Below, one piece after another: positions 1,520 through 52,800 of a stretch of DNA of 64,000 nucleotides. The translations under genes and the position numbers were made by a program. The first letter of the stretch is position 1, and each line of letters starts with the position of its first letter. The DNA is from Loxodes magnus (lineage: Eukaryota; Ciliophora; Karyorelictea; Loxodida; Loxodidae), in the NCBI GenBank assembly GCA_946699065.1, contig CAMPDV010001243.1:62001-126000 (forward strand). Reading direction: 5' to 3'. The notes under the pieces were generated by a model. The model searched no databases. It saw nothing but the letters and a program-made list of their open reading frames with translations, and had not been told where the DNA came from.

Positions 1520-3290
1520 CAAGCAAGATTTCCAAATGAAAACCTAGAAAGAGTATAAATATGGAAAATAATGGAATAGTAAAGTATTGTTAAGACATGT
1601 TATTAAATAGAAGGATTCGTCAAATGTCTTGTAGAACAAAGTTTTACTAATATTGCTAGTTAGGAAGACAGAAATATGAAAATAATGGATATTTTGTGGT
1701 AAATTTAAAAATAAAATCTTAATAATTTCTTATTAAGTAAATTATAATAAAACTCTTATAAACATATATCAAATTAATTAGAATGTATAGCGTTTCTTAG
1801 TACTCGTATTTATGCATTAATTTAATTTTCTATAATGACTAAAAGCATTAGAAGTATAACTTAAGATAATCTCTATAATATACTATATATATACGTTCTT
1901 GATTCAAACTAAAATCATCTACTCTTCTTTCTTAAGTAAATAAAGTTCTTTATTTATCTTTCAAATCTTATATCTCTATATTGTCTAGATAATTTATTCT
2001 GAAGACAAATTATTTCTTGATCTTACATTTTTTATTCAACTCAGGATGATTCTAATTATCATTAATCTTTTTTAATATTTCTTAAGAATTTCCTCTTTAT
2101 CAAACTTCTTTCCTTGACTTCTTAATAATACAAGCTAACCATTAGATATCTGACTTCTTACATGAAAAGAAGCTAGATAGTTATACTCTCGTTCATTTTT
2201 AGAGTTCTTTTAATAAATTTATTTTATTCCCTCAAGTTTAGGGATATAATTTATCTATTGATATACTCTTTATCTTCAAATCCCTATAAAATCTCTTAGA
2301 ACATGAATAACCTTAAAATATTCTGCTATTTATTCAAGTTAACTAAGCTTTTTATATAATAACATTACTTTATTTTGCTCATCAAAGTTATTTACCAGCT
2401 TCTATTTCCTACAGATTCTAGTCAAACTTTCTTACTAAGCATGTCAAAACACACTTTTAGACTAAAATCAACTAAACTGATTCAAATTTTGTTAGTAAGT
2501 GAATTAAGAGTTGACTTCATTAATAATATCTTACTCCTATTTAGCTTGAAGTTAATCTATATTTTCTTTTCTAAACTTAACGTTCTATTACTTACTGAAA
2601 TTTATTAGGTTTAATTTGCTTCATACTAAATCTGAGCTTTATTATTTACCTAATAGATATCACTAGCTTATTTATATACCTTAAAATATATAATTGAGAT
2701 AGTATATATTATACTTAGCTTTATCAACTTTTATTACTATATTTTCTAACTTTAATTTGCCTATATGCTTAAGCTATACCTTAATACTCCTTAGATTTTA
2801 TCCTTTACTTATTTCAATATATCTTCCAAACTTAAAAACATACTAAATTATTTCTATTTACCTTCAAATCCAACTATTTCATTATGTAACATTAATGCCA
2901 ATATTCACTAAACAAACTATCATCAGCTACTTAAAACATTTAGATCTACACAGAGAGTTATTATACCAATATGCTTCAAATACCACATACTATTTACTAC
3001 CTTCAACTAAGTCTTAGATACCTTCATAGTCAATCAATCAGCTTTTAGTTATAAATCATTACCAAGTATAGATCAATCTAGAGACAATATAAACACCAAC
3101 TTAGTCTTCATAAGACTAAACCTTTAACTAATAAATATAATCTAATTAGTACCTTTTCATATTCAGCGCTAAACATAGCCAAAATATCCTCTACCAGTAT
3201 AAATGTACAAGCTAATAGATGCAAGATTTTACTCTAGATATTCTTTGAATGCTATGTATTTAAATTAAACATTATTGATAGAAGTAATTT
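1520..3290. other. AT-rich stretch without a recognisable gene
   Basis: Pyrimidine-rich on the plus strand (CTT/TCTT runs), with no repeat shared with the rest of the window and no domain-bearing frame on either strand. It ends abruptly at 3295, where sequence shared with block 3 (from 40262) begins. Confidence 0.4.
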
Positions 3291-3294
3291 TTCT

Positions 3295-5900
3295 TAATGT
3301 CCATGGTGCATATTTTCTCTACTTTATTATTTTTATATTCTTTTTCAAGTTTTATTTAAGTTTTCTAAATTAATTTAATCTAAGATAATACTTATTTTAT
3401 TTTTTCCTTTCTTTTTTGATGCAGTCTAAATTTTCTCCTTGCTTCTTATCTCATTTCAATATAATTATCAATTTATCAGCATCCTTATCTAATTAGATAT
3501 TTTACTTATTTCGCCTGATATTAGAAGTCTTTTCTTAGTTTTATTATTTCTATTGTATATTAGTATTTTCTCATTTTATTTGTTACAAACCCAAATATCG
3601 CTTTGATCGCTTCTTGGATATATTTTAATCATTTTCATAGTATGCTTCGCTATCTAAAGTTTCGAATTCACTTAAATCTATTTTCTCGTATCATTCTTTG
3701 AATCTCTTTTGAACCTTTTAATGCTTTCATTTTTGAAAGTTTATCCTTTTAATTTATGGGCTTTTTCGATATTCTTCCTCAATTTTTATCTTTATTTTAC
3801 CTGGCTAATGATCTCCTGGCCTTTATTGATAGAATTTTATTCTGATAATGTTAGGTGTTATATATTGATCCGTTAAGAAGTAATTTATTTTAATTTTCCT
3901 TTTCCTTATGTTGTGATGAATATTTATCTTGATTTGGATCTATACATTAAAAAAGATAATTTTTCATCAAGTTAAGTAAGTATTAGCCTGCATTATTCTG
4001 CTTATACGATAAAAATTGGGGAATATGCACGTTTAAATCTCCTAATATTAAAATTTATAATACTTTGCAGTTTGCTGCTATTATGTATTATTAGAGACTT
4101 TCATAAAAGGTTATTAATTAATCAGAGTCGGATGTTGTAGTGCTATATACGTTTATAAATGCCAGCCGATCATCAAGTGTTAAACCTATTAATCTTCCTC
4201 TAAAATAATTCTGCGTGATTGAGATCCGCTATATCCAGTACTTTGTTTCTGCTGGTAATTCCATCTTTTATATAAATGCTACTCTTTTGCAGTCTCTTGT
4301 GCTCAATTTTATTATAGCTCTGAATCCATATATATAAGGTATTTCAGCAGTTTGATTCACAAATATTTCTTAAATCGCCATAATTTCTATCTTCTTTTCA
4401 CATATAAACTTGTTTAATTCTTCTGTTTGATTTTAATCCTCTGACATTTGCTATATCTATGTTTAACTCTGTCTATTTTATTATTTTAGTATTTCCTTGT
4501 ACTTCCTATTTTTCTTAATCCTCCTACCCTATATTTTAAGTTTCTACTTCTTTAATAGCGTGAAACCATATCGTTCTAATGTTTATTATTTTTTTTGTAC
4601 TTATGTCTTCAATTTTTATACTCAATACTATCTTCCTATATATGTTTTTCTATCTTTTTTAAGACAGCGTTGTGTTAATGCATAATTTCTTCCTGTCACT
4701 GCTTTCTAGTTTTTTCAGATTTTTTTACCTTATTTAATATTTTATTTTCTGTTTTTTGTGACATGTATCGTTTCGTCTCAGTTTATTTATTTAATTTTGT
4801 AGTTAAGTATCTATTAAAGTCGATCGCTTTTAAAGTAACTTTAATATGGCTTAAACTTGTTGCTTTTGCTAGAAGTTCAAAGTAGTATTTTATTTGAAGG
4901 TTAATTTTCTTCAGTTTTCTTCACTTTCTTTTCCTTCACGATATGTTTCTCTTTATAGTAAGGCATTTTATTCCTGATTTCAGAATGCATCAATCTGGTC
5001 TTTACTTCCTTAGGATTTAATTACTTATTTTATAACTTTTTTTCTTAAGCATTAATTTGAGCCATACCCTTATTTGTTACAGCTCATACATTTTCAAATT
5101 GATGGATGACTCAAGTAAGTGCTTATACCTCCTTCGTCTAACTTATCAAATACATTTTAAGCATCTTTGATCTCCTTCAATTCTAAATAATTTCTCATTT
5201 TTCCATTGACTCACGTTATACCTTTTATGATTCCTATCTCTATACATACTATTTTTCCATACAGCTATAGATGGATTTTCACCTGGTTCAAATTTGAATA
5301 CATGTTAAATACTCAATGAATCATGAACTCCTCTATATTTCTTTGCTCTGTTGGCATTAAAAAATTTCTACATTTCCATGTTTAACCATTTCCGAAATGT
5401 TTGAGTGTATCTTTATCTTTGAATCATATAATAATTATTTCTGTCTAAAGGATTTTCATACTCTCAATATTTTTACCATATCCTTAATTCAGAAATGCTT
5501 GATCGATTTCATTTTCTTGCCTTTCTGCCGGACTGAGTCTTTGGCTGTAGTAATTTTCTTCCAAAAATTTATTGAAATAGGTAAATCCTAACCTTATAAC
5601 AGTTTTGAGCTACATATTCTCGTCCTCATTTTATGGTATTTGCTCGTTCTTTTCTTCTTCCATTATAATAATTTGCACAGAACTGTTATCTGATATGATG
5701 TTCTAAATTAACAACTTTTTTTGATAGGTTACTTAGTTTTAAGATTTCTATTCCTTTTTTGTGTTCTCCTCCTAGTAGTTTAAAAATTTTGCAACTGAGA
5801 CGTTTTTCTTAAAAATAATATCAAAGATCTGATTAACTTGTAAAGCTCTTTCATGTCTTTTTTAAATTTACTAAGCAGTCTCGATTCTAGATTGGCGGCA
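3295..5900 (-). pseudogene. Decayed non-LTR retrotransposon (LINE), endonuclease and Gag part
   Basis: Read on the minus strand with TAR=Gln, TGA=Trp. At about 4015-4045 the APE-endonuclease core ILGDLNVH (family GDFNAH) appears, followed by the basic linker toward the RT, with TGA-encoded Trp at conserved-looking sites (KNWGRI, FKWIRN, LWKWLKY). Near 5060-5100 a Gag-type zinc knuckle, CMSCNKQGYGSNQC, has Tyr replacing the His. The RT itself is absent: homology with the copy at 39.2-42.9 kb stops at 3295. Frameshifts shared with that copy show both descend from an already dead element. It is divergent from, and about 150 bp from, the RING-kelch start at 6044. Confidence 0.7.
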
Positions 5901-6043
5901 TGCTGAATGTGAGATTGGTACTTTATATAATAGTTTAATATTGTACTAAGTAATAATGTAGTTTTAGATATTATTGACTGTATTTTTGATGGTAACTGTT
6001 ATAAATTAGCTTTATAGCTTTTGTAGTCTAAATAATAATAAAA

Positions 6044-7438
6044 ATGTAAGCGTTACCAAAATGCTTAATCTGCTTAGAAGATTACAACTTAACTAATGCT
6101 CTTCCAACTGTCTTACCTTGTGGACATATTTACTGTGGTTTGTGTTTGAATACTCAGTACTGATTATAAGGCATAATGTAATGTCCTATTTGTTAAAAAG
6201 GATTCCATTTTAGATTTGATGATTTACCTTAAGAAAGTGATTTAATAAGAGTGATATTTTAAAACTAATAATACATATAAAAGATTTAAGATGCTAGATA
6301 GAAATTAAAAGAGATAAGGAGGTAAATTATGGAAAAATCTAAAACCATTACAACCAAATAATCAAACATTAGTAATACTCTCATAATACCACTAACTAAT
6401 ATCATCATCAATCATTAACCAACATTTATCTACCAAAAATAACACTCAAATATTATCTAATTCTACTAATCACTAAAACCAACTATACTCTAATATAACT
6501 CATAACCACCTACAATACTAAACTCTAAATTAACTTACAATCTAATAAGATAAAAACTATAATACAATACTAAGTAACCAAATCAGATTTAGACTAATTA
6601 ACATAAAATAAGCTACCACTTTATATAATCTAACTATATTCACTTCTTTGATTGAAAAATTAAAAAATTAAGTTTATTTAATATTTAAACAGAGTAATTA
6701 CGATAAGTCTTAGTTTAAATTATTATTCCTGCTGAAAATAAAAGTATTGAATATTAAAATAAGTTATATTTAATTGGAGGATATAATTTAAATTAAAAGA
6801 AAGGAATAAAAGAAACTTGGTAGTTTGATTATGAAGGTAATAGTATAAAACTTAGTGATCTAAAAGAGGGAAGATGTGGCTTTGGAATAGCAGCAGCTTA
6901 AAAATATGTTTATGTGGTTGGAGGATTTACTAATAATAATCAAATATTATAATCAGTAGAAAAGTTAAAGATAGAAAACTAAAGTAAATGATAAAACTGC
7001 TCCTAGTTTCCATTTAGAATAACTTTTTAAACTTTAGTAGTAGATAAAGATGAATAAAATATTTATTCTTTTGGAGGTGCAAATTAGAAAAGTTAAAGTT
7101 TAAAAGATATATGAAAGTATAATATATAGAATGATAGATGAAATAAGTAAAATTTGAGTCTTCCTGAAGCTGTTGCTTAACCTATAGTTTGCTTAGAGCC
7201 TCTTGTCATATTTGGAGGTGGTAAAAATTATTCTACTAAAGAGCATTCAAGAAGAATATATAAAAAAAACAAAGAATAATGGCAATAAAGTTAAATTTTT
7301 AAAGATGTTGTAGCTTTAACGGAGATGAAAATAAGAAATAACTATGGATATGTTTTTGCTATAGAATAGAGAAGAGTTGTAATAATGAGGATTGATTTAG
7401 AAAAATTGAGTTATAGAAGTATTAGAAGTCATAACTGA
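6044..7438 (+). CDS. RING-kelch protein, copy 1 (464 aa)
   Basis: Intact 464-codon frame ending in TGA. Residues 1-50 form a C3HC4 RING (C7, C10, C26, H28, C31, C34, C47, C50), so an E3 ubiquitin ligase is likely. Residues 60-200 are a Thr/Asn/Gln-rich linker. Residues 220-450 carry kelch-type repeats: YLIGGYN, VYVVGGF, IYSFGGA, each followed by a Trp-containing strand. Internal TGA codons lie at 40, 204, 316, 357 and 366. Codon 40 is the standard Trp between RING ligands 6 and 7, and 357/366 are the paired kelch Trp (DIWKYN...DRWN). By family analogy, kelch would bind a substrate and RING would recruit an E2. A second copy lies at 14226 and a third at 42979, all of the same length. The role is inferred, not shown. 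Confidence 0.85.
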
Positions 7439-7962
7439 TAAACATAATAATAATATCTATAATATTAATAATATTTAAATATAGTTTTATATGTAAAGAA
7501 GTAGTTTAAAGATCTATAATTAGTTAAATATGTTATTACTTATTAAAATGGTTAAAGCGTTTGAAATAAATAAAGAATCAAATTTTATCTAAATATCTTT
7601 AAAAATCTATTATTCAAATATTATTTTTATTCAGAAACAAGCATACAGCTTATAATATATTAATATTCAACATAGTCAAAAAACTATTTTTAAATACATC
7701 CTTATATTCAAATTATACAAGTACTACTTAGATTACTATTTAACTAATTAAATCAAAACTATAATCAAATAATCAAATAATCATTAAGCTATACCTATAT
7801 CTAAATAATAATTAAGTCATCACTACTATCATCAAGTCAACATCTTAAACCCTTAAATACATTATTCCTTTAATCGTTTAAACTAAAATCTATATATATA
7901 AAAATGTCCCTTGTATAATCAACAATAAAGCCAAGTCATTATAATAGCTATATTCTCGATAA
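7439..7962. other. AT-rich 3' flank of RING-kelch, shared by all three blocks
   Basis: No gene seen. The stretch is homologous to 15621-16150 and 44374-44915, so it belongs to the duplicated block. It separates RING-kelch from the endonuclease ORF. In copy 1 it is interrupted by the Gag-only insertion at 7979. Confidence 0.6.
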
Positions 7963-7978
7963 AAACTCAATCTTAAGA
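7963..7978 (+). repeat. 16-bp target-site duplication, 5' copy
   Basis: AAACTCAATCTTAAGA, identical to 8811-8826. The other two blocks have a single AACTCAATC or AACTTTATC at this place, which confirms an empty site. Confidence 0.9.
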
Positions 7979-13735: not shown

Positions 13736-14225
13736 AGAAGCTACAAGATTATAGAAGCACTGAGACTATTCGAGAAATGATTGTGCGGTTTATTTTCAAT
13801 CACTAAAAAGAGGAAGAGAAAAGCAAGTTATAAGAATTAACGACACAGAGAAATCAGAAGAAATTGATTTTGAAACTTTTGAAGATAAAAACTTCTATAA
13901 ACTTGATTTGTGATTAACTGAATAGAGATGACTTCATTTAATATAACTGTGATTATGTTATTTCAAAGATAAATGATAATTTTAAATAAATTTGATAGTT
14001 GTATTTCTTTTAAGATTAAGAAGTATAATATATGTAAACTAATTTAGATAGTAATATGATTTGCATAATAATCTAATTATATTTTAATTATAAATGAGCA
14101 TGCAAAAATATCTAATTTGATACTAAATAAAGTAATAATGTAGTTTTAGATATAATTGACTGTATTTTTGATGGTAACTGTTATAAATTAGCTTTATAGC
14201 TTTTGTAGTCTAAATAATAATAAAA

Positions 14226-15620
14226 ATGTAAGCGTTACCAAAATGCTTAATCTGCTTAGAAGATTACAACTTAACTAATGCTCTTCCAACTGTCTTACCT
14301 TGTGGACATATTTACTGTGGTTTGTGTTTGAATACTCAGTACTGATTATAAGGCATAATGTAATGTCCTATTTGTTAAAAAGGATTCCATTTTAGATTTG
14401 ATGATTTACCTTAAGAAAGTGATTTAATAAGAGTGATATTTTAAAACTAATAATACATATAAAAGATTTAAGATGCTAGATAGAAATTAAAAGAGATAAG
14501 GAGGTAAATTATGGAAAAATCTAAAACCATTACAACCAAATAATCAAACATTAGTAATACTCTCATAATACCACTAACTAATATCATCATCAATCATTAA
14601 CCAACATTTATCTACCAAAAATAACACTCAAATATTATCTAATTCTACTAATCACTAAAACCAACTATACTCTAATATAACTCATAACCACCTACAATAC
14701 TAAACTCTAAATTAACTTACAATCTAATAAGATAAAAACTATAATACAATACTAAGTAACCAAATAAGATTTAGACTAATTAACATAAACTAAGCTACCA
14801 CTTTATATAATCTAACTATATTCACTATTTTAATTGAAAAATTAAAAAATTAAGTTTATTTAATATTTAAACAGAGTAAATACGATAAGTCTAGGTTTAA
14901 ATTATAATTCCTGCTGGCAATAATAGTATAGAATATTAAAATAAGTTATATTTAATAGGAGGATATAACAGAAATTAAAATAAATGAATAAAAGAAACTT
15001 GATAATTCGATTATGAAGGTAATAGTATAAAACTTAGTGATCTAAATGAGGGAAGAGGTTCCTTTGGAATAGCAGCTCCTTAAAAATACCTTTATGTGGT
15101 TGGAGGAATTACTGATAATTATCAATGGGTATAATCAGTAGAAAAGTTAAAGATAGGAAACTAAAGTAAATGATAAAAATGCTCTTAATTTCCATTCCAA
15201 ATAGCAAGTTAAACTTTATTAGTAGATAAAGATGAATAAAATATTTATTCTTTTGGAGGTGCAAATTATAAAGTATAATCTTTAAAAGATATATGAAAGT
15301 ATAACATATAGAACGATAGATGGAGTAAGTAAAATTTGAATCTTCCTGAAGCTGTTCTTAGGCCTATAGTTTGTTTAGAGCCTTTTGTCATAATTGGTGG
15401 TGTAAAAAATTATTCTAGTGAAGAGTATTCAAGGAGAATATATAAATGAAACAAAGAATAATGACAACAAAGCTAAATTTTTAAAGATGTTGTAGCTTTA
15501 ACGGAGATGAAAATAAGAAATAACTATGGATATGTTTTTGCTTTAGAATAGAAAATAGTTTCAATAATGAGGATTGATTTAGAAAAATTGAGTTATAGAA
15601 GTATTAAGAGTCATAACTGA
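14226..15620 (+). CDS. RING-kelch protein, copy 2 (464 aa)
   Basis: Same length as copy 1, no indels, and the same RING ligands C7 to C50. The first 600 bp and about 100 bp upstream are almost identical to copies 1 and 3, whereas substitutions gather in the kelch half. TGA stands at codons 40, 204, 316 and 357. Codon 366, TGA in copy 1, is TGG here. Ends in TGA at 15618. To its left is a Gag remnant and a GC-rich repeat instead of the LINE found beside copies 1 and 3. To its right, after about 600 bp, is the endonuclease ORF. Probably an E3-type ligase gene, or the passenger of a mobile block. Confidence 0.85.
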
Positions 15621-20109: not shown

Positions 20110-20926
20110 ATTTATCTAGCATTTGCTTGCTTGTCTGGATTAGGTTGAAAATCCCTAAAAGAACAAACTTTTTATCATTAATAATAGATATAAAGATTAA
20201 AGTAGCTTAGTTTAAAAACGATAATTTCCTATATAAATTCAGTTTAAGATTTAAGATTATATTAGCATTTATTTACTAAGCATACTAATAGCCCTAATAG
20301 AAATAACAATGATTATTTGAGTAATTCTAACAAATTTAATACAATTTCCTTTATGACTCTGAAAAAGTTCGTAAATTGATTTAGATATACTCAATTGATT
20401 AATTCTCTAATCCTTATTTAACCTTAAATTCCTTTCGATTCCTTTTATTACATTTCAATCAATTAGGAGCAAGGTTTTTAATTCCTTTTTTATTCAAGGT
20501 TATATTCAATAATCAATTTACTGATAGTTGGCGTAAGAGATTAAGTTATTTATTATAGATTTATCTTAACTTTTTTCCTTAGCTTCTAATTGTCTAATTA
20601 TAGCATATAGAATTATTACTTAAATCTTGCATAGTGTTAAATATTTTAGTGGGAGATACTTATTTCTTCAGAGTCATTTTCTATATGAAAGTAATAATAG
20701 AAAATTTTGATTGTGTTACTTTAAATATCTTTGTTTTACAACTTCTTTATAAAAATTTCTCGATAGGTTTTTACTCGAAACTTGCAGGTAAGAATGATAT
20801 GAATAATTAATTAAATCTCTCTTTCTCTTTAATGAAATAAAGATTTTTGCCTGTCAGTTCTGGAAGGGAAACTGTATAATTACTAAAATAGTTTTAATTT
20901 TATAAATTTAGTCTTCTATTAGACTT
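20110..20926. other. AT-rich stretch, nothing recognised
   Basis: No domain-bearing frame or repeat found before the inverted-repeat element starting at 20927. Confidence 0.35.
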
Positions 20927-21311
20927 AAATAAATAAATATGATTATAGAGCGCGTAGCTCCTCGTTGGCACGAAGCTCTTTCAGTATTAATATTTAATAT
21001 TAAAAAAAGTGTTCTCAAAAGATGATTTCATTCTATTCGTCCAATGAAACACATCAACTCTCCAAATGGGGAATCTTTTTATTTAAATTTCTTCTTAAAT
21101 CTTGAACAGAATGCTTCATTCTTTTTGAATAAGATCCAAATAAGAATTAGTAATTGAATCATTATTAGGACCATCAGTTAAACTCTCGTAAAGCTAGCGA
21201 GAACCCTCGGAGTAAATTAGTTTTGTCTCTTCAGAGCTTATCCGCCCTTCTCCGTGGTGGTATCTAGTGCGAGATTACTCGCAAAGCAATATACACTGTA
21301 CCAGATTACCT
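20927..21311 (+). repeat. Left terminal inverted repeat
   Basis: Outer end has a hairpin head: AGAGC (20946 on) pairs with GCTCT near 20972, enclosing TCGT-TGGC-ACGA. A GC-rich inner part near 21180-21310 includes CTAGCGAGAACCCTCGG and CCGTGGTGG. Confidence 0.85.
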
Positions 21312-21369
21312 ATTAATTTTTTAATGCGGCCTACTTGCATATTTTTTATATAATAATCTCCGTTCATGT

Positions 21370-22110: not shown

Positions 22111-23025
22111 TTAACCAAAGTAGATTTCTTTTTTCGCAAGATTGGATTTTCCTATTCTTATGGAGTATCTTCTTCAAAATTTCCTTAATTATTTTCTCCA
22201 TTTTTAAACTTTCTAGATCTTAGTTATGTTATGGATTAAATTCCTCAGAATCAAGGATGCTTTTTTGACTTCTTTTTACCTTTAGATGCTTTACTATCAT
22301 TTTTACAAGTTTTCTTCCGTAACAGTTAAATATTTGGTTGCAGAGTTTTTTATATCTCTCTTTGCTCTATAAACTTGCTTTCGTAGAAATAATCCTTAGA
22401 CTTATAATAGAATGATATGACTATATTATCTCACTATAGATAGTTAAGTATATCGAATAAATCTGAAGGATTGTTTTACTCTAATTAATAAGAATGCTAA
22501 ATTATCCTGTTTTATTAGTCTAGAATTATTCAGTAAAGAATCTTTTCTTTGCTTATGAAGAACAAAAATTATGGATAGCCGTGTGATAATCCTCAAGATA
22601 TGTTCTATTAGTTGGTAAAACCTTCCATTTAGCCTTTTTAAAGTAAATCTAATACTTTAAGTTTATCAATTTTCGCTTAATTATAGCCAAATTAAATTAC
22701 TACTTACATCAATTTTGGGAGTTTCTGTAGGTTCTAAAATAAATTTTGATAAAAATAAGTTCTAAAGCTCCATATTAAGGAAGTTACTCATTAATCTATT
22801 TTACTCAGTTTTCATTTTTGATATTTTCACTACAGAATCTCACAATTTGTTAGCTAGGACATTTAGTTAAATGGTTCCAATCCTTCTCCTATTCTACTTC
22901 TCCAAACATAATAAAACTTTAAGAATCTTAATTTTTAGGTTAAAAGAGCTGAGTAATAAAAAAGTAAACCACGTTGTTATTAAATATTATATAAAATGGA
23001 TTTCGGCCTCGTTAGAAAAACTAGT
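22111..23025. other. Interior of inverted-repeat element, no clear gene
   Basis: AT-rich. No motif recognised; the last 40 bp are imperfectly paired with 21312-21352. Confidence 0.4.
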
Positions 23026-23410
23026 AGGTAATCTGGTACAGTGTATATTGCTTTGCGAGTAATCTCGCACTAGATACCACCACGGAGAAGGGCGGATAAG
23101 CTCTGAAGAGACAAAACTAATTTACTCCGAGGGTTCTCGCTAGCTTTACGAGAGTTTAACTGATGGTCCTAATAATGATTCAATTACTAATTCTTATTTG
23201 GATCTTATTCAAAAAGAATGAAGCATTCTGTTCAAGATTTAAGAAGAAATTTAAATAAAAAGATTCCCCATTTGGAGAGTTGATGTGTTTCATTGGACGA
23301 ATAGAATGAAATCATCTTTTGAGAACACTTTTTTTAATATTAAATATTAATACTGAAAGAGCTTCGTGCCAACGAGGAGCTACGCGCTCTATAATCATAT
23401 TTATTTATTT
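23026..23410 (-). repeat. Right terminal inverted repeat
   Basis: Exact reverse complement of 20927-21311 as far as read. Confidence 0.85.
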
Positions 23411-23432
23411 AACTTAATGCTTTTTCAAAACT

Positions 23433-27284: not shown

Positions 27285-30200
27285 TCAATCTACTTTTCTA
27301 TTTCATTTTTTAATACTGTTATCCTTTCTATCAGGTGGATTTAGCTTTTCATCATTTTTCTTATTCAGAAAACTTTAATGATTTTAGGATAATCCCTCTA
27401 TCAAATCTTTTATTATAACTCTTTTATACAGTCGCTTTGCTATTTATCTTAGCCAGTTATGTTAATTCTTAACTTTCTTTTGGGTAAAAACTGGATTTTA
27501 TTCCTGATCCTCTAGCTGTGACTTGAAATATATCTCATTACTTAATTTTGTCTAGTTCTAGCTTTCAGTGTACACAATATCTACCTATTAAGATATAGAA
27601 ATTTACCTGTGTAGTGTTCTGATTTTCAGATGGTTAAAATTTTTAATTCTTATCCTTCATTAGTAAGAAGCGAGAGCTACTTGCTTAGACTTGAAATGAC
27701 TCATCGCTACTAAAATCTTTCTGCTGCTAGCAATAATTTGGATCTTAAGGAATTTAAATTTTGCACTCTTCAATCCCTTAGGCTTAGTTAGGCTTTATTT
27801 CTAATACATTTATAGCCCATTGTTCTTATACCTCTTGCTTCTTTTTCCCTTTTTTCCTTATATACTTTATCAGTTCTTTTATCATGGAAAAGAAACAGAA
27901 AACTAAGCAAATAAATAAGATACTTTCTTACACTAGCACTATCACTTTTCCAATTATCTTAGCTTTATCAGAATTAATTAGTTCTAGACTTCTTGCTTTT
28001 GTGCTACTGTCTAAGCTAAAGAAATAGAAGTCAAACGAGTACAAAATGGACATTCATATCTCTTAGAATATGTGAGCTTTGTTAACCATGCGTGACTCGA
28101 AAGGCTAGCAAGTAAGTATGAAAATAAGCTAAAACTGAGTCTAAACTAAGCATAGAGTCATTTAGAGTTAAGGAATATCTCTAAGCCCTATCAAAAAGAA
28201 AGCTAGCATAAGCCTTCGGGTCAAAAATAGAGGGTAGAACAACAATGCCAATTTTTTAGTTTTAAGCTCATCAAATATCGTAAAATACTTCATCTGATAT
28301 TGCTAAAGTAGTACTTTCTGTTCCTAGTCCTCAGGGTTTGTTTTATTTTTTATCTTTATGAACTTAATTACTACATAAAACAAATAAAAAATGACTGATA
28401 TTTGCAAAACCTAAAATAAAAGCTTACTAAGCATAAACATGCTGCTATTGAATTTACAGCAGCTCATGAGCTTTTTAGGCTAAAATTTTGTAGTTGATAA
28501 ATCGAGGTGTAACCTATCTTTAAGCTAAATACGAAATAAAGAGTCAGAACCAATCTATAATGCAAGTACTTGAGTCTAAAATTACTTAACTTTTAGCTTT
28601 AAGTGTACTTAAAAACGAGCTGTAATAGTAAGTCAATTGCTATAACTACAAGTATTACTATAAAGTTTGCTGAGACGTTTGGTAAGAAAATATTGTCTCC
28701 TCATTTACTTATTTCAAATAAATCGTTTTAGAGTGGATTCAAATCAACTTCTAGATTTAATTGCTTAGATAGCTCATTCAGCAAATTCTGATTCTATTGA
28801 TAGTAGTATGCTAACAATATTTCAGGTTTTTCAACATTTATTAGAATATTTGAATGAAAAAAATCGTCTGCTAGCATGAGCGTAAATATATTTCCGGTTG
28901 ATCCACTCAAAGGAAATATAAGACTAACTCCAGTTGCTGAACCAACTCCCACTACCATTGCAGCATCCTATATCTGTGAAGTTTTCTTAATAGCTTCTTT
29001 TTATGAAGTTGTTATATTAAACATGTCAATACTTCATTTCGTATCCTCATCCTTCTATTGATTAGATTAACTTTCTTCCTATTCTTCTTATGTCTTACTT
29101 GAATCACAACTGTTATTTTCAGTTAAGATATATGAAAAGAAGCAGGAGAGGCATAAACTTCCATCTTCAGAGCATTCCGAGCAATAATCTATTGTTTAAC
29201 TGCAAGGATTGCAAACACCTGACTTTGATTGATCCTATTCTGTTGAAGGACATTTTTCGAAACAGTTTCCATTAGATAACTTTAGGTCTTAGCATTGTGT
29301 ACAATCAGTTGAATTCGAACATTAAATACAATACGGATTAATTACTGAACATGACTTGCACTAATTGTCACTATCTAGGAAAAATCCACTTTAGCACTCA
29401 AAGCATTATTTACTTTGCTTTTTACATTTATTACAGCTTCATAGTTACTAACTACAAGGTAAACAAACTTAGTTATTATCGTAATCTTGCTCTGTATCAT
29501 CACACTAAGTTTAGCATGTATTATTAGAAAGCATCAGAGTTCTACATTCTAGACAAATGCCTTTCTATTTACATTTGGTACAGTCTTAGTGTATTTCACT
29601 GCATAAAAAGCACGCGTTTTCTCCTAGTCCATAATTAGTAAAGCAAGCATCACATATAAGCTTATCATTACTTTCATGACATTTCTAACATTTGTCGATA
29701 ATTAGATTGCAAGGCTGACAAACATTATCTTTGTCTGTGTCTTAGTCAAACTATGAGCATTAGTCTTTGCATTCGTTTTTAGTTAGCTTTTTATTGCAAA
29801 ATTAGCAGATATTTTAAGCATCGTAATAATAATTCTTAAAGCACTCATCTACACATACATTACTTTAAAGTTTTAAAGGTGAAAGGCAGCTGAAGCATAT
29901 TGATCCATTTAAAGAACAATTGTTACAATTCTAAATATTCTGAGAGCATATCTGACATTAATATTTACTATTAATGTAAAACCCTTTTTCACAATTTAAG
30001 CATTCGATTCCATCTTCGCTACACTAGAGGCAACTATTAAGTTAGTAATTACAACTTTTACAAACTCCATCATTATTACTATCCTATTCTGTAACTGGAC
30101 AATTAGGAAAACATTTGTTTTAGGAAAGTTTAAAAGGACTGCGACATTAAGAGCACTTATTTTTGTCTTAGCAATTTATACAGTTTGTATCGATTGAACT

Positions 30201-32573
30201 ACAAGGAAAGCACAACCCATCTTACTCGAGTACGCTGTTTTAGTTACAGACTAAGCACTTGAGACCATCTTCAGTACAGTCTTAGCAATTTGCTAAGACT
30301 TCACTACAAAGCTTGCATTTTCTATCTCCGTCTTTGTCTTGCTCTGTTATAGGACAGCTATTTGTGCATTAGTTTTATGAAAGTTTATAAGGACTGTTAC
30401 ATTCTATGCAAGTAATCTTGTCAGAGCAATTTATACAATTTGTATCAATAAAACTACAGGAATAGCACATTCCATCTTACTCGAGCACGTTGTTTTAGTT
30501 ACAGACTAAGCACTTGAGTCCATCCTCAGTACATTCGATGCAATTACTAAGTACAGCACTACATAATTTGCATTTTCTATCTCCGTCTTTGTCTTACTCT
30601 GTAATAGGACAGCTATTTGTGCATTAATTTTATGAAAGTTTAAAAGGACTGTTGCATTCTGTACACGTGCTTTTATCAGAGCAGCTTATACAGTTAATAT
30701 CAATTGAACTACAAGGATAGCACAACTTGTCTGCTTCAAGTACGCTGTCTATGCTACAGATTGAGCACTTGAGTCCATCCTCAGTACATTCGATGCAATT
30801 ACTAAGTACAGCACTACAAAGCTTGCATTTTCTGTCTCTGTCTTTGTCTTACTCTGTAGTAGGACAGCTATTTATGCATTTGTTTTATGAAAGTTTAAAA
30901 GGACTGTTGCATTCTGTACACGTGCTTTTATCAGAGCAATTTATACAGTTAATATCAATTGAACTACAAGGATAACACAACCCATCTTACTCGAGCACGT
31001 TGTTTTAGTTACAGACTGAGCACTTGAGTCCATCCTCAGTACATTCGATGCAATTACTAAGTACAGCACTACAAAGCATGCATTTTCTGTCTCTGTCTCT
31101 GTCTTTGTCTTACTCTGTTATAGGACAGTTACTAGAACATTTGCTTATAGATTCTTCTAATTTTAAAGGATTAAAGCAGACATTACAAACAGATCCTTTG
31201 TTTAAGCAAGTTTAGCAATTAGTGTCTGAACATTAATGACATTGGAAATCCGTTCCTACATAGTATCCGTCGATACATTTTGTACATTACAAACCATCCA
31301 ATGTACACTCTAAGCAATTCGTTAAGACTAATGAGCATGCCTTACATATTCGAACTCCATTTTTATCTTATTAAGTAGAAGGGCATGTATCTTAGCATTG
31401 GCCAGAGTAAAGATATTTAGTTGAACATTTAGTGCAAGTAAATTTATCAGAACAAGCTACACAATCATTAAGATAAGATGAACATAGGTAACATGTGTTG
31501 TCTTAAATGTAATATCCTGTATCGCATTAGTTACATACTGTTCCAGTTAAATTACAATCAAGACAGTTAGGAAGGGTTTAATTACATAATTCACATTTAT
31601 GGTCTCCGTTCTTATCTTATTGACTTGAACTACAATCAGTTTAGCAAGTTCCATCAAGCCTAAGATAATAAGGTGATTAGCATGATAAACAAGTTGAACC
31701 ATCAGAGCAAGTTTAGCATTTATTCATGGTTTATTGGCACTATTAACATGTAAAGGGATTAGAATTTATACTTCAAGAATCAGAGTTACACTTACAAGTA
31801 TAGAAGGCTGTATCTAAATATTAATTTGCTCTACAAGTTCAGCAAGAATTAGGTCCAGTACTCGAACATTTTAAGCATTTAGGATCACAATTATTAGTAC
31901 AGGAATCTGTTAAAGGAGAAGTACAATAACCCTAAGAGCAACTTAGAACACAAGGACTTTTTTAAGCAAGATCGCTAAACTCTTAATTAGTAAATCATTT
32001 ATTGTTTCCTCAAAATCTTAAATCAACCATTTATCCGTGAAAGGGATATCCTGTTCATTTGTCCCCGTTTCCAATTTTCATGACAGATGAAGAATTTAAT
32101 TAAATTCAGCCTGACTATTTACTCGCAGTTGTACAAGTAAAAGTGGTCTATTCATAATATTGTATACTATTGCATCGGGATAATTTTGGTTAATTAGTCA
32201 TTTGAATAAGATGGAAGTATCAAATATTGCATCCAAAATAATGATTATCTTCCTCAAACCAAGTTAATGAGCCTGGTAAATCCCAAGAAATTCTATTAGC
32301 TGATGTATCTTATCTTTCTCAAAAAACCATTTTGATACTTCCTGTCTGAAATTCTATAACACTATTATATTAACTATCACATCTAGTTAACTGTAATCAA
32401 CCAGTTAAAGCTCACGAATTCTATGAATTTACACTGGGGTCATAGGAAAACTATGCAAAAGTAACAGTTTTGGCAGTACCAGTGAACTATTAAGCAGTAA
32501 TAGAATCAATGAGTTAGTAATATTAGGATTTTACTTTTAAGAGACATAGTAAGATAATTAGAGTCACTTACAT
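27285..32573 (-). CDS. Secreted/membrane protein: lectin-like head, Cys-rich repeats, multi-TM tail (1762 aa)
   Basis: One frame runs from ATG at 32573 to TGA at 27285-27287, followed by a second TGA. Residues 1-17, MQVTLIILLCLLKVKSQ, form a signal peptide. Residues 20-205 resemble a concanavalin/LamG-like lectin fold (NSWALTGWLQL, IGNGDKWTGYPFHG). Residues about 208-1160 are growth-factor-receptor/furin-type Cys-rich repeats (CTEDGLKCSVC, NCINCSDKSTCTEC) including an 85-aa tandem repeat. From about 1195 come hydrophobic helices (near 1199, 1304, 1339, 1365) and a basic cytoplasmic tail. Many Trp are TGA. This architecture is typical of large ciliate surface proteins. The ligand is unknown. 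The 5.3-kb frame without indels argues for a live gene. Confidence 0.85.
30050..31130 (-). repeat. 255-bp tandem coding repeat in the surface-protein gene
   Basis: The plus-strand landmark around the CTEDG codons recurs at 30264, 30519, 30774 and 31029, exactly 255 bp apart, giving an 85-residue Cys-rich unit repeated four times. Neighbouring units are very similar at DNA level, indicating recent expansion or homogenisation. Confidence 0.85.
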
Positions 32574-39179: not shown

Positions 39180-42100
39180 TTCTAAAGAAATAATTTCTTT
39201 AAATCAGTTTCCAAATATTTATATTCCTTTACTCTTTCTATTGCCATTTCATTTATATATATTATTTGTCAACTTTGTATTTTCTTTCCATTTCATAGCA
39301 TTCACTACGTCTTATCTGCTCATATTATATTATTAAGATAACCGTTGTAATATTTCAATCATCTCTTGCAATTGATTTGGACTTATAATCATTTCAATCT
39401 CATCTACATATACCAATGCTCCCATATATCTTTCCTCTGTATATTATTCTAATTTCATGTTTATGGTTATTCTTACTTTGTTTTATCTTAGTTAGTTGAC
39501 AAGTTTATTTATTATAATATTGAATAATCTTGGAGAGCAGGTGCTACCTTATTTAGCTCATTTCCCCGTTTAAAACTGTTCTGATATTAAACCATTTATT
39601 TTTATCTTTGCTTCTTCTCTGTACAAATCAGTTATGAGCTTGATTATTTGCTCAAGTTTTTCAATTTCATTTAGTATCTTTCATATGTCTGCTTTTATTA
39701 CTGAGTCAAATGCTTTTTTTAAATCAATAAATATTACTCCTTTTTCTTGATTATTTTTCTTAAGTCATTCTTGTGCAGTTCTTAGATTGAAGATTTGCTA
39801 TAAGCATGATTTGCCTTGCTTGAAGCCATATTATAATTCATCGTCACATTTGCTCAAATATGAGTTTATTTATCCAAATAATCAGATATCTAAATTTTTA
39901 CTAAATGAATTAAAAGTGAAATCGGCTTATAATTCATAGAGTTTTGCATTCTACCTTTTTTATGAAGTAGTATAATAAATGATCCTTTAATATTGCTTGG
40001 CATAGCTCCAAATTGTATTATTTTTACGTTAATATTGCGATTAGGTTAACAATTTATCTCCTCAAGTTCTTATTGTACTTATTTATTTTCTATCAGGTCC
40101 TGCAGCTTTCATTAGGAGAGCTTTTTTATACAGCACACTAAATATTCGTTTTAGACCTATATTGTTTGTGTGTTCTTGTATGAATCTAATAATCATTTGC
40201 TGCCACTTTTATAGATCTCCTCTCAACTTTCTTTAAAATTTTGCATATCCTTTTCGTTTATTAATGTCCATGGTGCATATTTTCTCTACTTTAATCATCT
40301 TTGAATTCCTTTTCAAGTTTTGTTTAATTTTCCTTAATTAATTTTATCTAAGAAAATATTTAATTGATTTTTCCTATCTTTTTTTGATGCAGTTTAAATT
40401 TTCTCCTTGCTTCTTTCTCATTTTAATATAATTATCAATTTATTAGCATCCTTATCTAATTAGATATTTTACTTATTTCGCCTGCTATTAAAAAAAAATT
40501 TTCTGTCAATATATTAGTTTTTTCTCATTTAATCTATTATAAATCCATATATCACTTAGGTCGCTTCTTGGATATATTCTTTATTTTCATAGTGTGCTTA
40601 GCTATCTAAATTTTCGAATTCGCTAAGACATATTTTCTTGAATCATTCTTTGAATCTCTCTTGAACCTTTTATTACTTTAATTTTTTTTAAGTTTATCCT
40701 TTTAATTTATGGGGTTTTTCGATATTCTTCCTTAATTTTTATCTTTATTTTACCTGGCTAATGATCTCCTATTGGTCTCTATTGATAGAATTTTGTGCTG
40801 ATAATGTTAGGCATGATATATTGCTCCCTTAAGAACTATTCTATTTTCAATTTTCCTTTCCCTTTCATAGTGATGAAGGTTGAATCTTTTTTTGGATCTT
40901 TACAATCTAAAAGATAATCTTTCATCAAGTTAAATAAGTATTAGCCTGCATTATTCTGCTCATACGATAAAAATTGGGGAGTATGCGCATTAAAATCCCC
41001 TAGTATTAAAATTTATAATCCTTTGCTGCTATTATGCATTATTAGAGACTTTCATAAAAGGGTATTAGTTAGTCAGAGTCAGATGTTGTAGTGCTATATA
41101 CGTTTATCAATGCAAGCCGAACATCAAGTGTTAAACCTATTAATCTTCCCCTAAAATAATCCTGCTCGATTGAGATCTCCTATATCATACTTTGTTTCTG
41201 CGGATAATTCCATCTTTTAAATAAAATGCTACTCCTTTGCAGTATTTTGTGCTCAATTTTATTATTGCTCTGAATCAATGTTTATAAGCATTTTGGCAGT
41301 TTGATCCGTAAATATTTCTTAAATCGCCATAATTTCTATCTTCTTTTCACACATAAACTTGATTAATTCCTTCTTGCTTGATTTTATTCTTTTGGTATTT
41401 GTTGTGCCTATGTTTAATTCTGACTATTTTATTATATTAATATTTTCTTTTACTTCCTTTTTTTCTTAATCCTCCTACTCTGCATTTTTAGCTTCCTATT
41501 CTTTAATAGCGTGAAAACCAAATCGTTCTAATGTTTATTATTTTTCCTGTACTTATGTCTTCATTTTTTTGCTCGATACTATCTTCCTTACCATTATATT
41601 TTTTTATCTTTTTTGAGAAGGCGTTATGTTTATGCATACTTCCTGTCACTACTTTCTATTTGTTTCAGTTTTTTTGTCATATTTCCTATTTTACTTTCTG
41701 TTTTTTTGTGATATTGATAGTTTCGTCTCAGTTTTATTTATTTAAATTTGTAGCATAAACTTGTTGCTAGAAATAAGACGTGGTAATCTATTTGAAAATT
41801 ATACTCTTTAGTTTTCTTCGCTTTCTTTTCCTTCGCTATCAGTTTCTCTTTATAATAAGGCATTTTATTCCTGATTTCTGAATGTATCAACCTGATTTTT
41901 ACTTCCTTAACATTTTTAATTGCTTTCTTTATAGTTTTTTTCTTAAGTATTAATTTGTTAATATGCACTTTTTGGCTACAGTTCATACATTTTCAAATTG
42001 ACGGATGATTCAAGTTAGTGGTTATACCTCCTTCGTCTAACTTATTTGATATATTTTCTACATCTTTGATCTCCTTCAATTCTAAATAAGTTCTCATTTT

Positions 42101-42860
42101 TCCATGGGTTCACGTTGGTCTTTTACAGTTCCGATTTTTGTACATGCTATTTTTCCGTACTGCTCCGGTGGGTTTCTACCTGGTTAAAGCTTGAATACAT
42201 GTTAAATGTTCAATGAATCAGGTAGTTCTTAATGTAGTAGAATTCCTCTATATTTCTTTGCTCTTTTGACAAACTAAATTTCTACTATTCAATGTTTAAT
42301 TATTTCCGAATTGTGTGAGTGTTTCCTATTTTTGAATTATATAATATAATTATCCCTGTCTGAAGGATTTTAGCACTCTCAATATTTTTCCATATTCTTA
42401 TTTCAGATATCTGAGAAATGCTTGAACGATTTCATTTTCTTGCATTTCTGCTGGACTGTGTCTTTGGTTGTAGTATTTTTATTCTAAAAATTTATTGAAA
42501 TAGGTAACTCCTACTCTTTAGCAACTTTGAGCTGCATATTATCGTTCTCATTTTCTGGAATTTGCTTATTCTTTTCTTCTTCCATTAAAAGATTTGCATA
42601 GAGCTGTTGTCTTGTATGATGTTCTAAATTATCTATGTTTTTGATAGGCTACTTAGTTTTTAGATTTATGCCCCTTTTTCTTGTGCATTCCGCCTAGTAG
42701 TTTAAATATTTTACAACAGAGACGTTTTTCTTAAAAATAATATCCAAGATCTGATTAATCTGTAAAGTTCTTTCATGCCTTTGTTAAATTTAACTTGTAG
42801 TCTCGATCCGAGATTGGTTGCATATGGATTGTGAGATTGTTACTTTATATAATATCCTAG
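39180..42860 (-). mobile_element. Near full-length LINE (Gag, endonuclease, reverse transcriptase)
   Basis: Minus strand, about 3.7 kb. Gag part: a charged N-terminus near 42590 (MEEEKNKQIPENEND) and a knuckle CMNCSQKVHINKL near 41970 that keeps the His but lacks the last Cys. Endonuclease near 41330-40980: IEIMAIQEIF, KGVAFYLKDGI and ILGDFNAH. Reverse transcriptase: KAAGPDRKQIS (40100, family PGPDG), VIFIDLKKAFDSV (39720, catalytic Asp), AKQGSTCSPRLFN (39550, RQG box with Gln as TAA) and LVYVDEIEMI (39410, YADD box as YVDE). TGA stands for the Trp of ADIWKIL. Frameshifts, shared with 3295-5900, mean it is probably dead. Confidence 0.8.
41738..41986 (-). CDS. Lys-rich part of the LINE Gag ORF
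   Basis: In-frame continuation of the Gag protein after the knuckle: KAIKNVKEVKIRLIHSE then highly basic AKEKKAKKTKEY. It stays open even in the standard code, which is why it stands out, but it belongs to the LINE above and is not a separate gene. Confidence 0.5.
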   Translation of the reverse strand: MNCSQKVHINKLILKKKTIKKAIKNVKEVKIRLIHSEIRNKMPYYKEKLIAKEKKAKKTKEYNFQIDYHVLFLATSLCYKFK

Positions 42861-42978
42861 CATAATTTAATGTATGTAAATAAAGTAATAATGTAGTTTT
42901 AGATATAATTGACTGTATTTTTGATGGTAACTGTTATAAATTACCTTTATAGCTTTTGTAGTCTAAATAATAATAAAA

Positions 42979-44373
42979 ATGTAAGCGTTACCAAAATGCT
43001 TAATCTGCTTAGAAGATTACAACTTAACTAATGCTCTTCCAACTGTCTTACCTTGTGGACATATTTACTGTGGTTTGTGTTTGAATACTCAGTACTGATT
43101 ATAAGGCATAATGTAATGTCCTATTTGTTAAAAAGGATTCCATTTTAGATTTGATGATTTACCTTAAGAAAGTGATTTAATAAGAGTGATATTTTAAAAC
43201 TAATAATACATATAAAAGATTTAAGATGCTAGATAGAAATTAAAAGAGATAAGGAGGTAAATTATGGAAAAATCTAAAACCATTACAACCAAATAATCAA
43301 ACATTAGTAATACTCTCATAATACCACTAACTAATATCATCATCAATCATTAACCAACATTTATCTACCAAAAATAACACTCAAATATTATCTAATTCTA
43401 CTAATCACTAAAACCAACTATACTCTAATATAACTCATAACCACCTACAATACTAAACTCTAAATTAACTTACAATCTAATAAGATAAAAACTATAATAC
43501 AATACTAAGTAACCAAATAAGATTTAGACTAATTAACATAAACTAAGCTACCACTTTATATAATCTAACTATATTCACTTTTTTGATTCAGATACTTAAA
43601 AATTAAGTTTATTTAATATTTAAACAGAGTAATTACGATAAGTCTAAGTTTAAATTATAATTCCGAAAGCTCGTAAAAGTATAGAATATGAAAATAAGTT
43701 ATATTTAATTGGAGGATTTAACAGAAATTAAAATAAATGAATAAAAGAAACTTGATAATTCGATTATGAAGGTAATAGTATAAAACTTTGTGATCTAAAT
43801 GATGGAAGAAGTTACTTTGGAATAGCAACTGCTTAAAAATAACTTTACGTGGTTGGAGGATTTACTAATAATAATCAAATGTTATAATCAATAGAAAAGC
43901 TAAAGATAGGAAACTAAAGTAAATGATAAAACTGTTCCTAGTTTCCATTTAGAATAGCAGTCTAAACTTTAGTAGTAGATAAAGATGAATAAAATATTTA
44001 CTCTTTTGGAGGGTTTAATTAGAAAAAATAAAATTTAAAAGATATATGAAAGTATAACATGTGGAATGATAGATGGAGTAAGTAAAATTTGAATCTTCCT
44101 GAAGCTGTTGCTTTTCCTATAGTTTGTTTAGAGCCTTTTATCATATTTGGAGGTGTAAAAAATTATTCTAGTGAAGAGTATTCAAGAAGAATATATAAAA
44201 GAAGTAAAGAATAATGGCAATAAAGCTAAATTTATAAAGATGTCTATGGTTTAACGGAGATGAAAATAAGAAATAACTATGGATATGTTTTTGCTATAGA
44301 ATAGAGAAGAGTTTCAATAATGAGGATTGATTTAGAAAAATTGAGTTATAGAAGTATTAGAAATGATAACTGA
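42979..44373 (+). CDS. RING-kelch protein, copy 3 (464 aa)
   Basis: Third indel-free copy, 465 codons including TGA at 44371. RING ligands and codon-40 TGA are intact. TGA also at 316 and 357; codon 204 has changed (DSDT replaces DWKI) and 366 is TGG. A second kelch Trp reads DIWKYNMWNDRW. The 5' 600 bp is almost identical to the other copies. It is divergent with the LINE on the minus strand, about 120 bp away, as in block 1, and followed by a truncated endonuclease ORF. Probable E3-type ligase; the partner is unknown. Confidence 0.85.
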
Positions 44374-44919
44374 TAAACATAATAAAAATATCTATATTAT
44401 TAATATTATTTAAATATTATCTCATATGTAAAGAAGTAGTTTAAAGATCTATAATTAGGTAAATATACTACTACTTATTAAAATATTTAAAGCGTCTGAA
44501 ATAAATAAAGAATAAGATTTTATCTAAACATCTTTAAAAATCTATTATTAAAATATTATCATTATTCAGATACAAACATATAGCTTATATCAGCCAAAGC
44601 ATATTCAACACAGTCAAAAAAACTATCTTTAAATACATTCTTATATTAAAATTATACAAGTACTACTTAGATTACTCTATTATTTATCTAATCAAATAAA
44701 AATTATAATCAAATAATAATTAAGCTATACCTATATCTAAATACTAATTAAGTCATAACTACTATCATCAAATCAACATCTTCAAATTTAGAATAAATTA
44801 ATTCCTTTCTCATTTAAGTTAACTAATATATATACTTAAAAATGCCCTTCTATAGCTAATAATAAAATCAAACCATTACAACTCTTATACTCTCAATAAA
44901 AACTCAATCATAATAATTT

Positions 44920-50579: not shown

Positions 50580-52800
50580 GAGTTAAAAGTAAATGATTTC
50601 TCAGCTTTATATTAAAAAACTACTCTCTGTAAAAATAAAAAATCACTCTAAATAAAAAAGCTGCTAATATAAAGCATACAATGACTTTCTTCGAATCAAT
50701 GATTACTTAAAATATGAAAGTTACTTTCTTAAATATAAATTAATACCCCCTATTAATTAAAAAAAATACATTCTGAATAATTAATTTTACTGACTAAACT
50801 TAAATAGTACAAACTGATATAAAAACTTACGATCTAAATTTAAAAAATACTATCTAACAATTAAACCTTACAATCTGAAATAAAAAATTACCTAAGGTTA
50901 ATAGTAAACCTCCTAAAATAAACTAATACCATCTATGAATAAAAAACAAAACTATCTATAATAGCTTTTTATACAATCTATAAATAATACAAATATTTTA
51001 CATTCTATAAATATTTAAAATATTTACCCTCTTAATTTTTAAAATCATTTACCCACTAAAATATTACAAAATCTTACCTTCTATACAAATTTTATTTTCT
51101 TACTTTCTATAAATATTTTAAATACCTTACGATCTAAAAAAGTTTTAATGTTTTACTCCCTATAAATAACTTAAACATATTACATTCTAAATTTTTTAAA
51201 ATAATTTACCCACTTTATGTATTAAATATATTACTTCCTTTAAATAAAAAAAAGCATATTACTCTCTATAAATATTTTAATACCTTACACACTAAAAGAA
51301 TTTTAAAATCTTTCTCACTATTATTATTTGAAGTTTCTTACTTTCTATCATTTTTATCAATTCTTACTTCCTATTAAATTGTAAATATTTTACTCTCTAA
51401 AATATTCAAAATTTCTTACTTTCTATCAATATTTAAAATAGTTCACCATCTAAAGATATAAGAAAAATTAACCTCCTAAAATTCTTAAATAAACTACTCC
51501 CTATAACTATTAAAATCTTGCAGTCTATAAATAACGAAATGACCTACCATCTATAAAGTTTTAAAAAGCTTTACTTTCTTTAATAATAAAATAGCTTACA
51601 AACTATCAGAAATTAATATCTTTTACTTTCTGTAATTTTTAAAGATTTTACTCACTGCAAATATTTAAAAAATAACTTGCCATCTAGATGTACCATAACC
51701 TCTTACTCTCTATTAATATTTAGAATTTATAACGATCTATAAACTTTAAAATAGCTTGCCAACTTTATCCATTGATTTTCATTACTATCTACGAATGTTT
51801 AAAATATCTTACATTCTTTAATCTATTAAATACATTACCTCCTATAATATTTCGATAGCTTACAAACTTGATATTTTAAAATATCTAACCTTCTGATTTT
51901 TTAATTTCTACCCTCTAGAATGTCTTAACATATCTTACTAACTATAAATTTTAAAAATAACTTACCTTCTTTAAATAGTTAAGACATCTTGCCTTCTTTA
52001 TATATTTAAATTATCTAACTTTCTATAAATATTTATTATTTTACCACCTATAAATAATTAAATATCTTACATTCTTAATATATTTAAAACATCTTACCAT
52101 CTTGTAAAATTTAAATTAATTACTTGCTAAAAGATATAAAGCATCATACTATCTATAATATTAAAAACATACTATCTTCAGAAGCTTAGAATTTCTTACG
52201 CTCTTTAAATTATTCAAATTATTTACAATCTAATGATAATTAATTTTTCTAACATTCTATATATTAAAGATTACCCTCTTTCTTATATTTTACCTCCTAT
52301 ATTTAATTCTTTACTTGCTTTAGATTTTATTTCTTACTTTCTTAATTTAATTTTTACCGTCTGCTTTTATTTTCTTACAGACTTTTTTAATGCTTACATT
52401 CTTATTTAATTCTTACTTCCTTTTTGATTTAATTTTTACAATCTATACTTGAAACTTTTACATTCTAAGTTATTATATTTGATACTTTCTATTTTTTGTT
52501 TTATTACTCACTTAATTTTAATTTATTACTTGCTGCTTTAAAGATCACTTTCTACAAAGTTAATATTTACTTTTCTTCATTTCATTTTCATCTTCTTAGT
52601 TTATTAAATACTCTCTTCTATATCAGATATAGATACATTCTATATATTTTTAAGTTTTACATGCTATGCTTATTTTTATACCACATTATTGTCTCATCTA
52701 CTTAAAAACTGATTATATTATCTTATTACCTTCTATTTTAGTTGTTACCTTCTATAAATAATCATATATCCTCACTTCCTATATTTTTATTTGCTTACAA
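50580..52800. repeat. Degenerate tandem repeat array, about 2.2 kb
   Basis: Plus-strand units of roughly 25-35 bp share the theme TTAC(C/T)TTCTATAAATATTTAAAA; on the minus strand the theme is AGAAGGTAAGATATTT. Dozens of units with indels. It directly follows, and slightly overlaps, the 3' end of the RING/ubiquitin-like gene. Function unknown; no coding or satellite match claimed. Confidence 0.7.

Follow-up and report, generated by a model that had tools for sequence, protein, structure and literature searches.

Genes and repeats of the window

We analysed a 64-kb stretch of DNA from Loxodes magnus (hereafter, the window), in which no open reading frame of at least 150 amino acids exists under translation table 11. 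Long frames open once TAA, TAG and TGA are read as Gln, Gln and Trp, namely those of a RING-kelch gene (6044-7438, plus strand), a MORN-repeat gene (60393-61985, minus strand) and a Cys-rich gene (first exon at 28428-32573, minus strand). The original prediction that several long genes are uninterrupted solely under such an all-sense reading was borne out for the MORN and Cys-rich genes.

The RING-kelch gene is present on the plus strand in three copies of 465 codons each, all with a terminal TGA at codon 465. Copy 1 (6044-7438) has further in-frame TGA codons at positions 40, 204, 316, 357 and 366, and the predicted locations at codons 40, 357 and 366 were correct in this frame. Copy 2 (14226-15620) has internal TGA at codons 40, 204, 254, 259, 316, 357, 408 and 413, and copy 3 (42979-44373) at codons 40, 254, 259, 316 and 357. 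A fourth, intact copy lies just outside the window (L002:3581). Pfam searches with a slightly longer stretch around copy 1 returned kelch (2e-16) and RING (2.5e-9) matches. Across 574 nt of their 5′ part, the three window copies are identical (6010-6583, 14192-14765 and 42945-43518), and their 3′ 855 nt diverge by about 10% without any indel; copy 4 differs at 2 positions within the first 540 nt and at 73-90 further on. The pattern is suggestive of gene conversion that keeps one half of the gene constant, next to a kelch half that diverges. The linker of the gene contains a stretch of 93 nt without G on the plus strand (~6416-6508), and the neighbouring pieces are G-poor.

Twice, a kelch copy and an antisense LINE remnant are arranged head to head (3290-7976 and 40257-44913, ~85% alike over 4.7 kb). 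The LINE part has no match beside kelch copy 2, and one was found beside copy 4. The remnant at 3290-5900 (minus strand) gave a weak Exo_endo_phos_2 match below the curated cut-off and is ~85% like 40257-42830, with many indels. A LINE reverse transcriptase domain (RVT_1) belonging to a decayed element is located at 39321-39863 (minus strand). For the 706-Mbp macronuclear assembly of L. magnus, the available text of the genome report gives ~2,700 RVT_1 and ~1,200 Exo_endo_phos_2 copies (PMC11441545).

The MORN-repeat gene comprises 531 codons with internal TGA at codons 98, 150, 189, 463 and 498; its exact end is uncertain (TAG at 527, TAA at 530, TGA at 531). The first exon of the Cys-rich gene spans 1382 codons with 14 internal TGA and 2 TGG, is strongly 3-periodic, and encodes an N-terminus that by eye resembles a signal peptide. 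It would be joined to a continuing frame by a 17-nt GT..AG intron (28411-28427, minus strand) that we deduced from the frames. The end of the gene was not found, and its product had no match in protein family or solved-structure searches. Among its internal repeats, one Gln column is TAA in five and CAA in one, and the other columns show an uninformative spread. We abandoned a gene search by codon usage, with single genes as the training set, as one run returned only the Cys-rich gene and the other many short segments.

In kelch copy 1, the MORN gene and the Cys-rich exon together, 24 of 2378 codons (1.0%) are internal TGA, against 7 TGG, too few genes for a genome-wide figure. This three-gene share is higher than the UGA share of codons reported for Parduczia (0.120%); for Condylostoma, the same source, as far as its text was available, gives 0.042% (PMC4967479).

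Several further repeats were noticed. A 397-nt inverted repeat (20925-21321 and 23016-23412) is 99% complementary with arms 1.7 kb apart, and has relatives of 72-80% near 53.6 and 55.6 kb. The segment 51609-58173 recurs further along the same contig (L003:3455-10000) over 6.6 kb at 98.6% identity; either it was duplicated recently or the second copy is an artefact of assembly. Tandem repeats in degenerate form (64-70% alike) occupy 50972-52226; near them, a minus-strand stretch at ~52.8-53.3 kb matches the ubiquitin family and, weakly, RING. Three other repeat pairs of the window contained indels and had no clear codon-position bias. Neither Rfam at gathering scores nor ARAGORN reported anything in the window, the latter having been run for tRNAs.

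UGA at tryptophan columns

Six columns of the kelch alignment (40, 259, 316, 357, 366 and 413) contain solely TGA or TGG in all four copies, their 24 codons consisting of 18 TGA and 6 TGG. Three of these columns (316, 366 and 413) are spaced by 50 and 47 residues, a distance that fits the Trp of successive kelch blades. The remaining TGA columns (204, 254 and 408) hold mixed residues, and columns 301 and 362 have TGG in one copy only. Among the three window copies, TGA↔TGG exchanges account for 6 of 12 in-frame pairwise differences involving TGA, compared with 1 of 20 in one other frame and no TGA difference at all in the remaining frame. Solved-structure alignments of short queries around two of the kelch Trp yielded nothing usable.

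Alignment of the TGA columns to profiles, which had been proposed as a check, favoured Trp for most kelch families and for MORN, but not for RVT_1, zf-C3HC4 or PF24681. For the kelch gene, TGA was set to ten residues in turn and scored against 14 Pfam families. Trp gave the best score in 11 of the 14, tied in one (zf-C3HC4_3) and was lower in two. The gain from Trp was at least 4.5 bits in the kelch families that it won and only 0.1-1.4 bits in the RING families. One of the two exceptions was zf-C3HC4 (Arg 26.5, Trp 24.8); the other was PF24681 (Trp 61.8, Gly 82.7, Gln 94.1), a preference we take as an artefact because the number of counted stretches rises from one to three. With the MORN profile, for which six residues were tried, Trp scored 87.5 bits, followed by Tyr (83.9), Leu (83.1), Cys (77.7), Arg (76.4) and Gly (74.8), and the Trp of the MORN motif YEGDW is indeed written TGA (codon 498 of 531, at 60494, counted from the gene start at 61985 on the minus strand). 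Codon 40 had been described as the usual Trp of a C3HC4 RING. It is TGA or TGG in all four copies, but the column is weakly diagnostic, since zf-C3HC4 prefers Arg and in an alignment with TRIM25 the Trp falls one column away.

The reverse transcriptase examples put forward in the original prediction fared less well. A TAA does occupy the Gln of the RQG box in the RVT_1 domain, and this residue is Gln in 5/5 printed solved-structure alignments; the TGA codons of the domain are at poorly matching columns, one of them on the Gly of G-V-K/R-Q-G just before the RQG box, and among three residues tried for TGA, RVT_1 scored Arg at 76.0, Gly at 75.7 and Trp at 74.6. The supposedly invariant Trp of DIWKIL did not hold up, as five printed R2-type reverse transcriptases have Met, Ile or Val there. 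An NWRP motif near 56540 can be read as KN-TGA-RP, but no Pfam family reached E≤0.1 in six frames of the surrounding ~56.0-59.0 kb. We rejected the LINE copies for reading the code, as frameshifting indels separate them; because these copies have decayed in this way and place TGA at non-Trp columns, the reverse transcriptase examples are unfit as code evidence.

A rival account would have internal TGA mark TGG-to-TGA decay in dead genes of an organism where UGA is only a stop. Decay is the valid description of the LINE remnants, whose copies differ by indels and carry TGA off the Trp columns, but it is refuted for the intact genes, and as an account of the code it is highly improbable. The four kelch copies have 0 indels across 1395 nt, whereas each of the three window pairs shows 6-8 indels within ~480 nt of 3′ flank, and six columns have been kept as TGA or TGG. 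Pairwise divergence of the window copies is 0.117-0.154 in the 3′ flank and 0.102-0.103 in the diverged part of the coding sequence, and omega over that part (codons 181-464) is 0.44-0.66 for the three pairs. TGA also appears in the gene of an RF1-type release factor from the same assembly (L001), and the strongly 3-periodic Cys-rich exon contains 14 of them.

Internal UGA might alternatively be bypassed, by RNA editing, by excision as part of tiny introns, or by insertion of selenocysteine or cysteine. The introns of 17-22 nt deduced in this assembly speak for such a scheme, but TGA and TGG interchange at the same kelch columns, and Cys scored 8.3 bits (Kelch_4) and 13.9 bits (Kelch_1) below Trp, so that we give bypass practically no weight. 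Reading internal UGA as Trp remains the preferred explanation.

Glutamine codons and gene ends

In the RF1-type gene, which presumably encodes a mitochondrial release factor, the Gln of GGQ is written TAG, and those of CQDE and NFPQ are written TAA. These positions are Gln in 5/5 printed solved-structure alignments (the best 5 of 46 matches), and one more TAA nearby is at a position occupied by Lys in the solved structures. Two paralogues of the eukaryotic release factor eRF1 (L005:1456 and L006) lie ~35 kb apart on one contig and are 90.7% alike over 1788 nt. In the first of them, comparison by eye with human eRF1 placed TAA or TAG at the Gln of GTLQG, GGQ, DQR, FNQ, SQEG and GSQF; further TAA or TAG codons fall on residues other than Gln, among them the Ser of TASNIKS. 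Judged from these alignments, the Gln meaning of TAA and TAG can be regarded as settled by the TAG at the GGQ of the RF1-type factor together with the Gln columns of eRF1. Profile scores were less discriminating. For RVT_1, Gln led (74.6, against Glu 67.2 and Tyr 61.3); for Kelch_4, Gln (60.8) was not separated from Glu (59.4), Lys (65.3) or Ser (66.8), with Tyr at 40.8; and for MORN, Glu (90.8) exceeded Gln (87.5), followed by Tyr (56.9).

Homology fixes six gene ends, those of the two eRF1 paralogues and the four kelch copies, which are related within each family, and all six are TGA. Both eRF1 paralogues end in ...DPDEDFL-TGA; the first terminates with TGA at codon 437, and the human protein is 437 residues long. 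In the kelch copies, indels set in within ~40 nt after the TGA at codon 465. A terminal TGA had been expected in every intact gene, which held for the kelch and eRF1 ends but could not be pinned down elsewhere.

These ends bear on whether the genes might instead follow the code of Condylostoma (table 28), in which the three codons are all sense and all three may also stop. A TAA comes directly after the terminal TGA in kelch copies 1-3, and the end of the MORN gene holds TAG, TAA and TGA within five codons; taken alone, these genes would be compatible with UAA or UAG stops. Both eRF1 paralogues, on the other hand, end in TGA, and the next few codons contain neither TAA nor TAG. No UAA or UAG stop occurs among the six homology-fixed ends, which are few and related, and the MORN end would allow one. 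The introns deduced from reading frames, 17 nt in the Cys-rich gene and 22 nt in the RF1-type gene, suit Loxodes, for which the accessible part of the genome report gives a mode of 17 bp with 93% of introns up to 25 bp, rather than heterotrichs with their 15-16 nt (PMC11441545). The same source names UGA as the only stop of L. magnus. Table 28 is accordingly very unlikely here, and we retain UGA as the stop codon of these genes.

In the available part of that report, UGA and UAA are described as rare just upstream of the stop in L. magnus (PMC11441545). Kelch copies 1-3, which are related to each other, fit this depletion, TAA being absent from the last 47 codons and TGA from the last 51-107, with one TAG 23 codons upstream. 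It is absent from the MORN gene, where a TAG four codons and a TAA one codon before the presumed TGA stop run contrary to the published depletion of UAA.

The window is almost certainly nuclear DNA of L. magnus, from its macronuclear assembly, that uses the karyorelict code, NCBI table 27. The reading of UAA and UAG as Gln and of UGA as both Trp and stop, as predicted for the karyorelict variant, is supported at the level of sequence by the kelch columns, the Pfam scores, the RF1-type gene and the eRF1 ends. It is correct but not new, as table 27 with UGA as the sole stop is already in print for Loxodes (stated in the consulted portion of PMC11441545). According to the accessible passages, L. 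magnus (PMC11441545) and Parduczia sp. (PMC4967479) share Gln-coding UAA and UAG, UGA as Trp and only stop, short introns and the rarity of UGA and UAA before the stop, and nothing found here is categorically different. An earlier paper gave karyorelicts including Loxodes UAR as Gln and UGA as stop, with no Trp meaning for UGA in its accessible passages, and we counted it against the Trp reading (PMC6935857). Condylostoma magnum resembles the present case in that all 64 codons can be sense and stops depend on context; there, UAA and UAG serve as stops too, whereas here UGA alone is found at the few ends fixed by homology (PMC4967479, as far as its text was accessible).

Decoding of UGA

The original prediction had pointed to a UGA-decoding tRNA-Trp and to changes in eRF1 as features to look for in the genome. 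A pattern search combining a Trp-type anticodon loop with a T-loop gave 133 matches, compared with 16 for a backwards control. The best 100 of these comprised 48 in an array on contig 67, 48 in an array on contig 148, one on contig 110, two on contig 130 and one on contig 143; ARAGORN recognized no tRNA at the contig-143 site or at one of the two contig-130 sites. In the contig-67 array (L037, spacing ~187 nt), the anticodon stem of tRNA-Trp(CCA) is ATCGA/TCGAC, with 27A.43C broken and 4 bp left at 30/30 loci examined. In the contig-148 array (L068-L070, spacing ~241 nt), it is TTCGA/TCGAC with T27.C43, again 4 bp in 5/5 copies examined. The stem length was read from the tRNA position numbering around the anticodon; the minimum in RNA folding was not a cloverleaf. 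A 4-bp stem was therefore seen in 35/35 array copies examined, although the single copy on contig 110 has a normal stem of 5 bp (TTCGA/TCGAA). A UCA loop occurred in two of the 100 listed among the 133 matches; their 27-nt match is identical, and one of the two, when scanned, proved to be no tRNA.

Trp is not the only amino acid with evenly spaced tRNA arrays. A tRNA family search, in which 63 of 42,786 candidates were scored, also gave regularly spaced matches, and these were tRNA-Lys where scanned (24/30 loci scanned). No paper on Loxodes tRNA arrays was among the literature matches listed, which tells nothing either way.

Changes in the stop-reading part of eRF1 were likewise found. In both paralogues TASNIKS is replaced by RAQNIKS, Ser70 by Ala and YLCDNKF by FLCENTF (human numbering). 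According to the available text on Blastocrithidia, Ser70 is a stop-reading residue and Ser70Gly is linked to UGA readthrough there (PMC12153298). No statement on Ser70Ala in Loxodes was among the literature matches listed, and it may still have been reported. The coding sequence of the first paralogue contains 0 internal TGA and 4 TGG.

This arrangement resembles known cases in which a tRNA-Trp with an anticodon stem of 4 bp reads UGA as Trp. Here, that tRNA change occurs in two tandem arrays, which coexist with a separate 5-bp copy. Blastocrithidia, as described in the accessible passages, shares UGA as Trp and a change of eRF1 residue 70, to Gly there and to Ala here; unlike L. magnus, it reads UAR as Glu and uses UAA as the stop (PMC12153298).

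In the reading that we favour, UAA and UAG are read as glutamine and internal UGA as Trp. By analogy with the published work on Condylostoma, Blastocrithidia and Loxodes, internal UGA would most likely be decoded by the tRNA-Trp(CCA) with its anticodon stem of only 4 bp, and UGA close to the 3′ end of the short message would be read as stop by eRF1, with nearness to the poly(A) tail probably deciding between the two meanings. The three codon meanings, the presence of UGA where genes end, the tRNA-Trp genes with short stems and the altered stop-reading part of eRF1 come from the DNA sequence itself. A more speculative proposal, which we consider rather unlikely although far from negligible, is that the reading of UGA rests on gene dosage: about a hundred tandem genes of a leaky 4-bp-stem tRNA-Trp(CCA) (at least 96 listed, 35 examined and all of them 4 bp) would face very few 5-bp copies (one seen) and, together with the Ser70-altered eRF1, let UGA become the predominant Trp codon of some gene families; core genes, eRF1 for example, would use UGG alone.

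An all-sense code with a context-dependent stop is among the strangest codes known. Our analysis adds corroboration for it in L. magnus: a release factor has its catalytic Gln written as UAG, short-stem tRNA-Trp genes form tandem arrays beside one copy with a normal stem, and Ser70 is replaced by Ala in eRF1. These features of the release factors and of tRNA-Trp may be used to test how the reading of Trp and the termination of translation share one codon.
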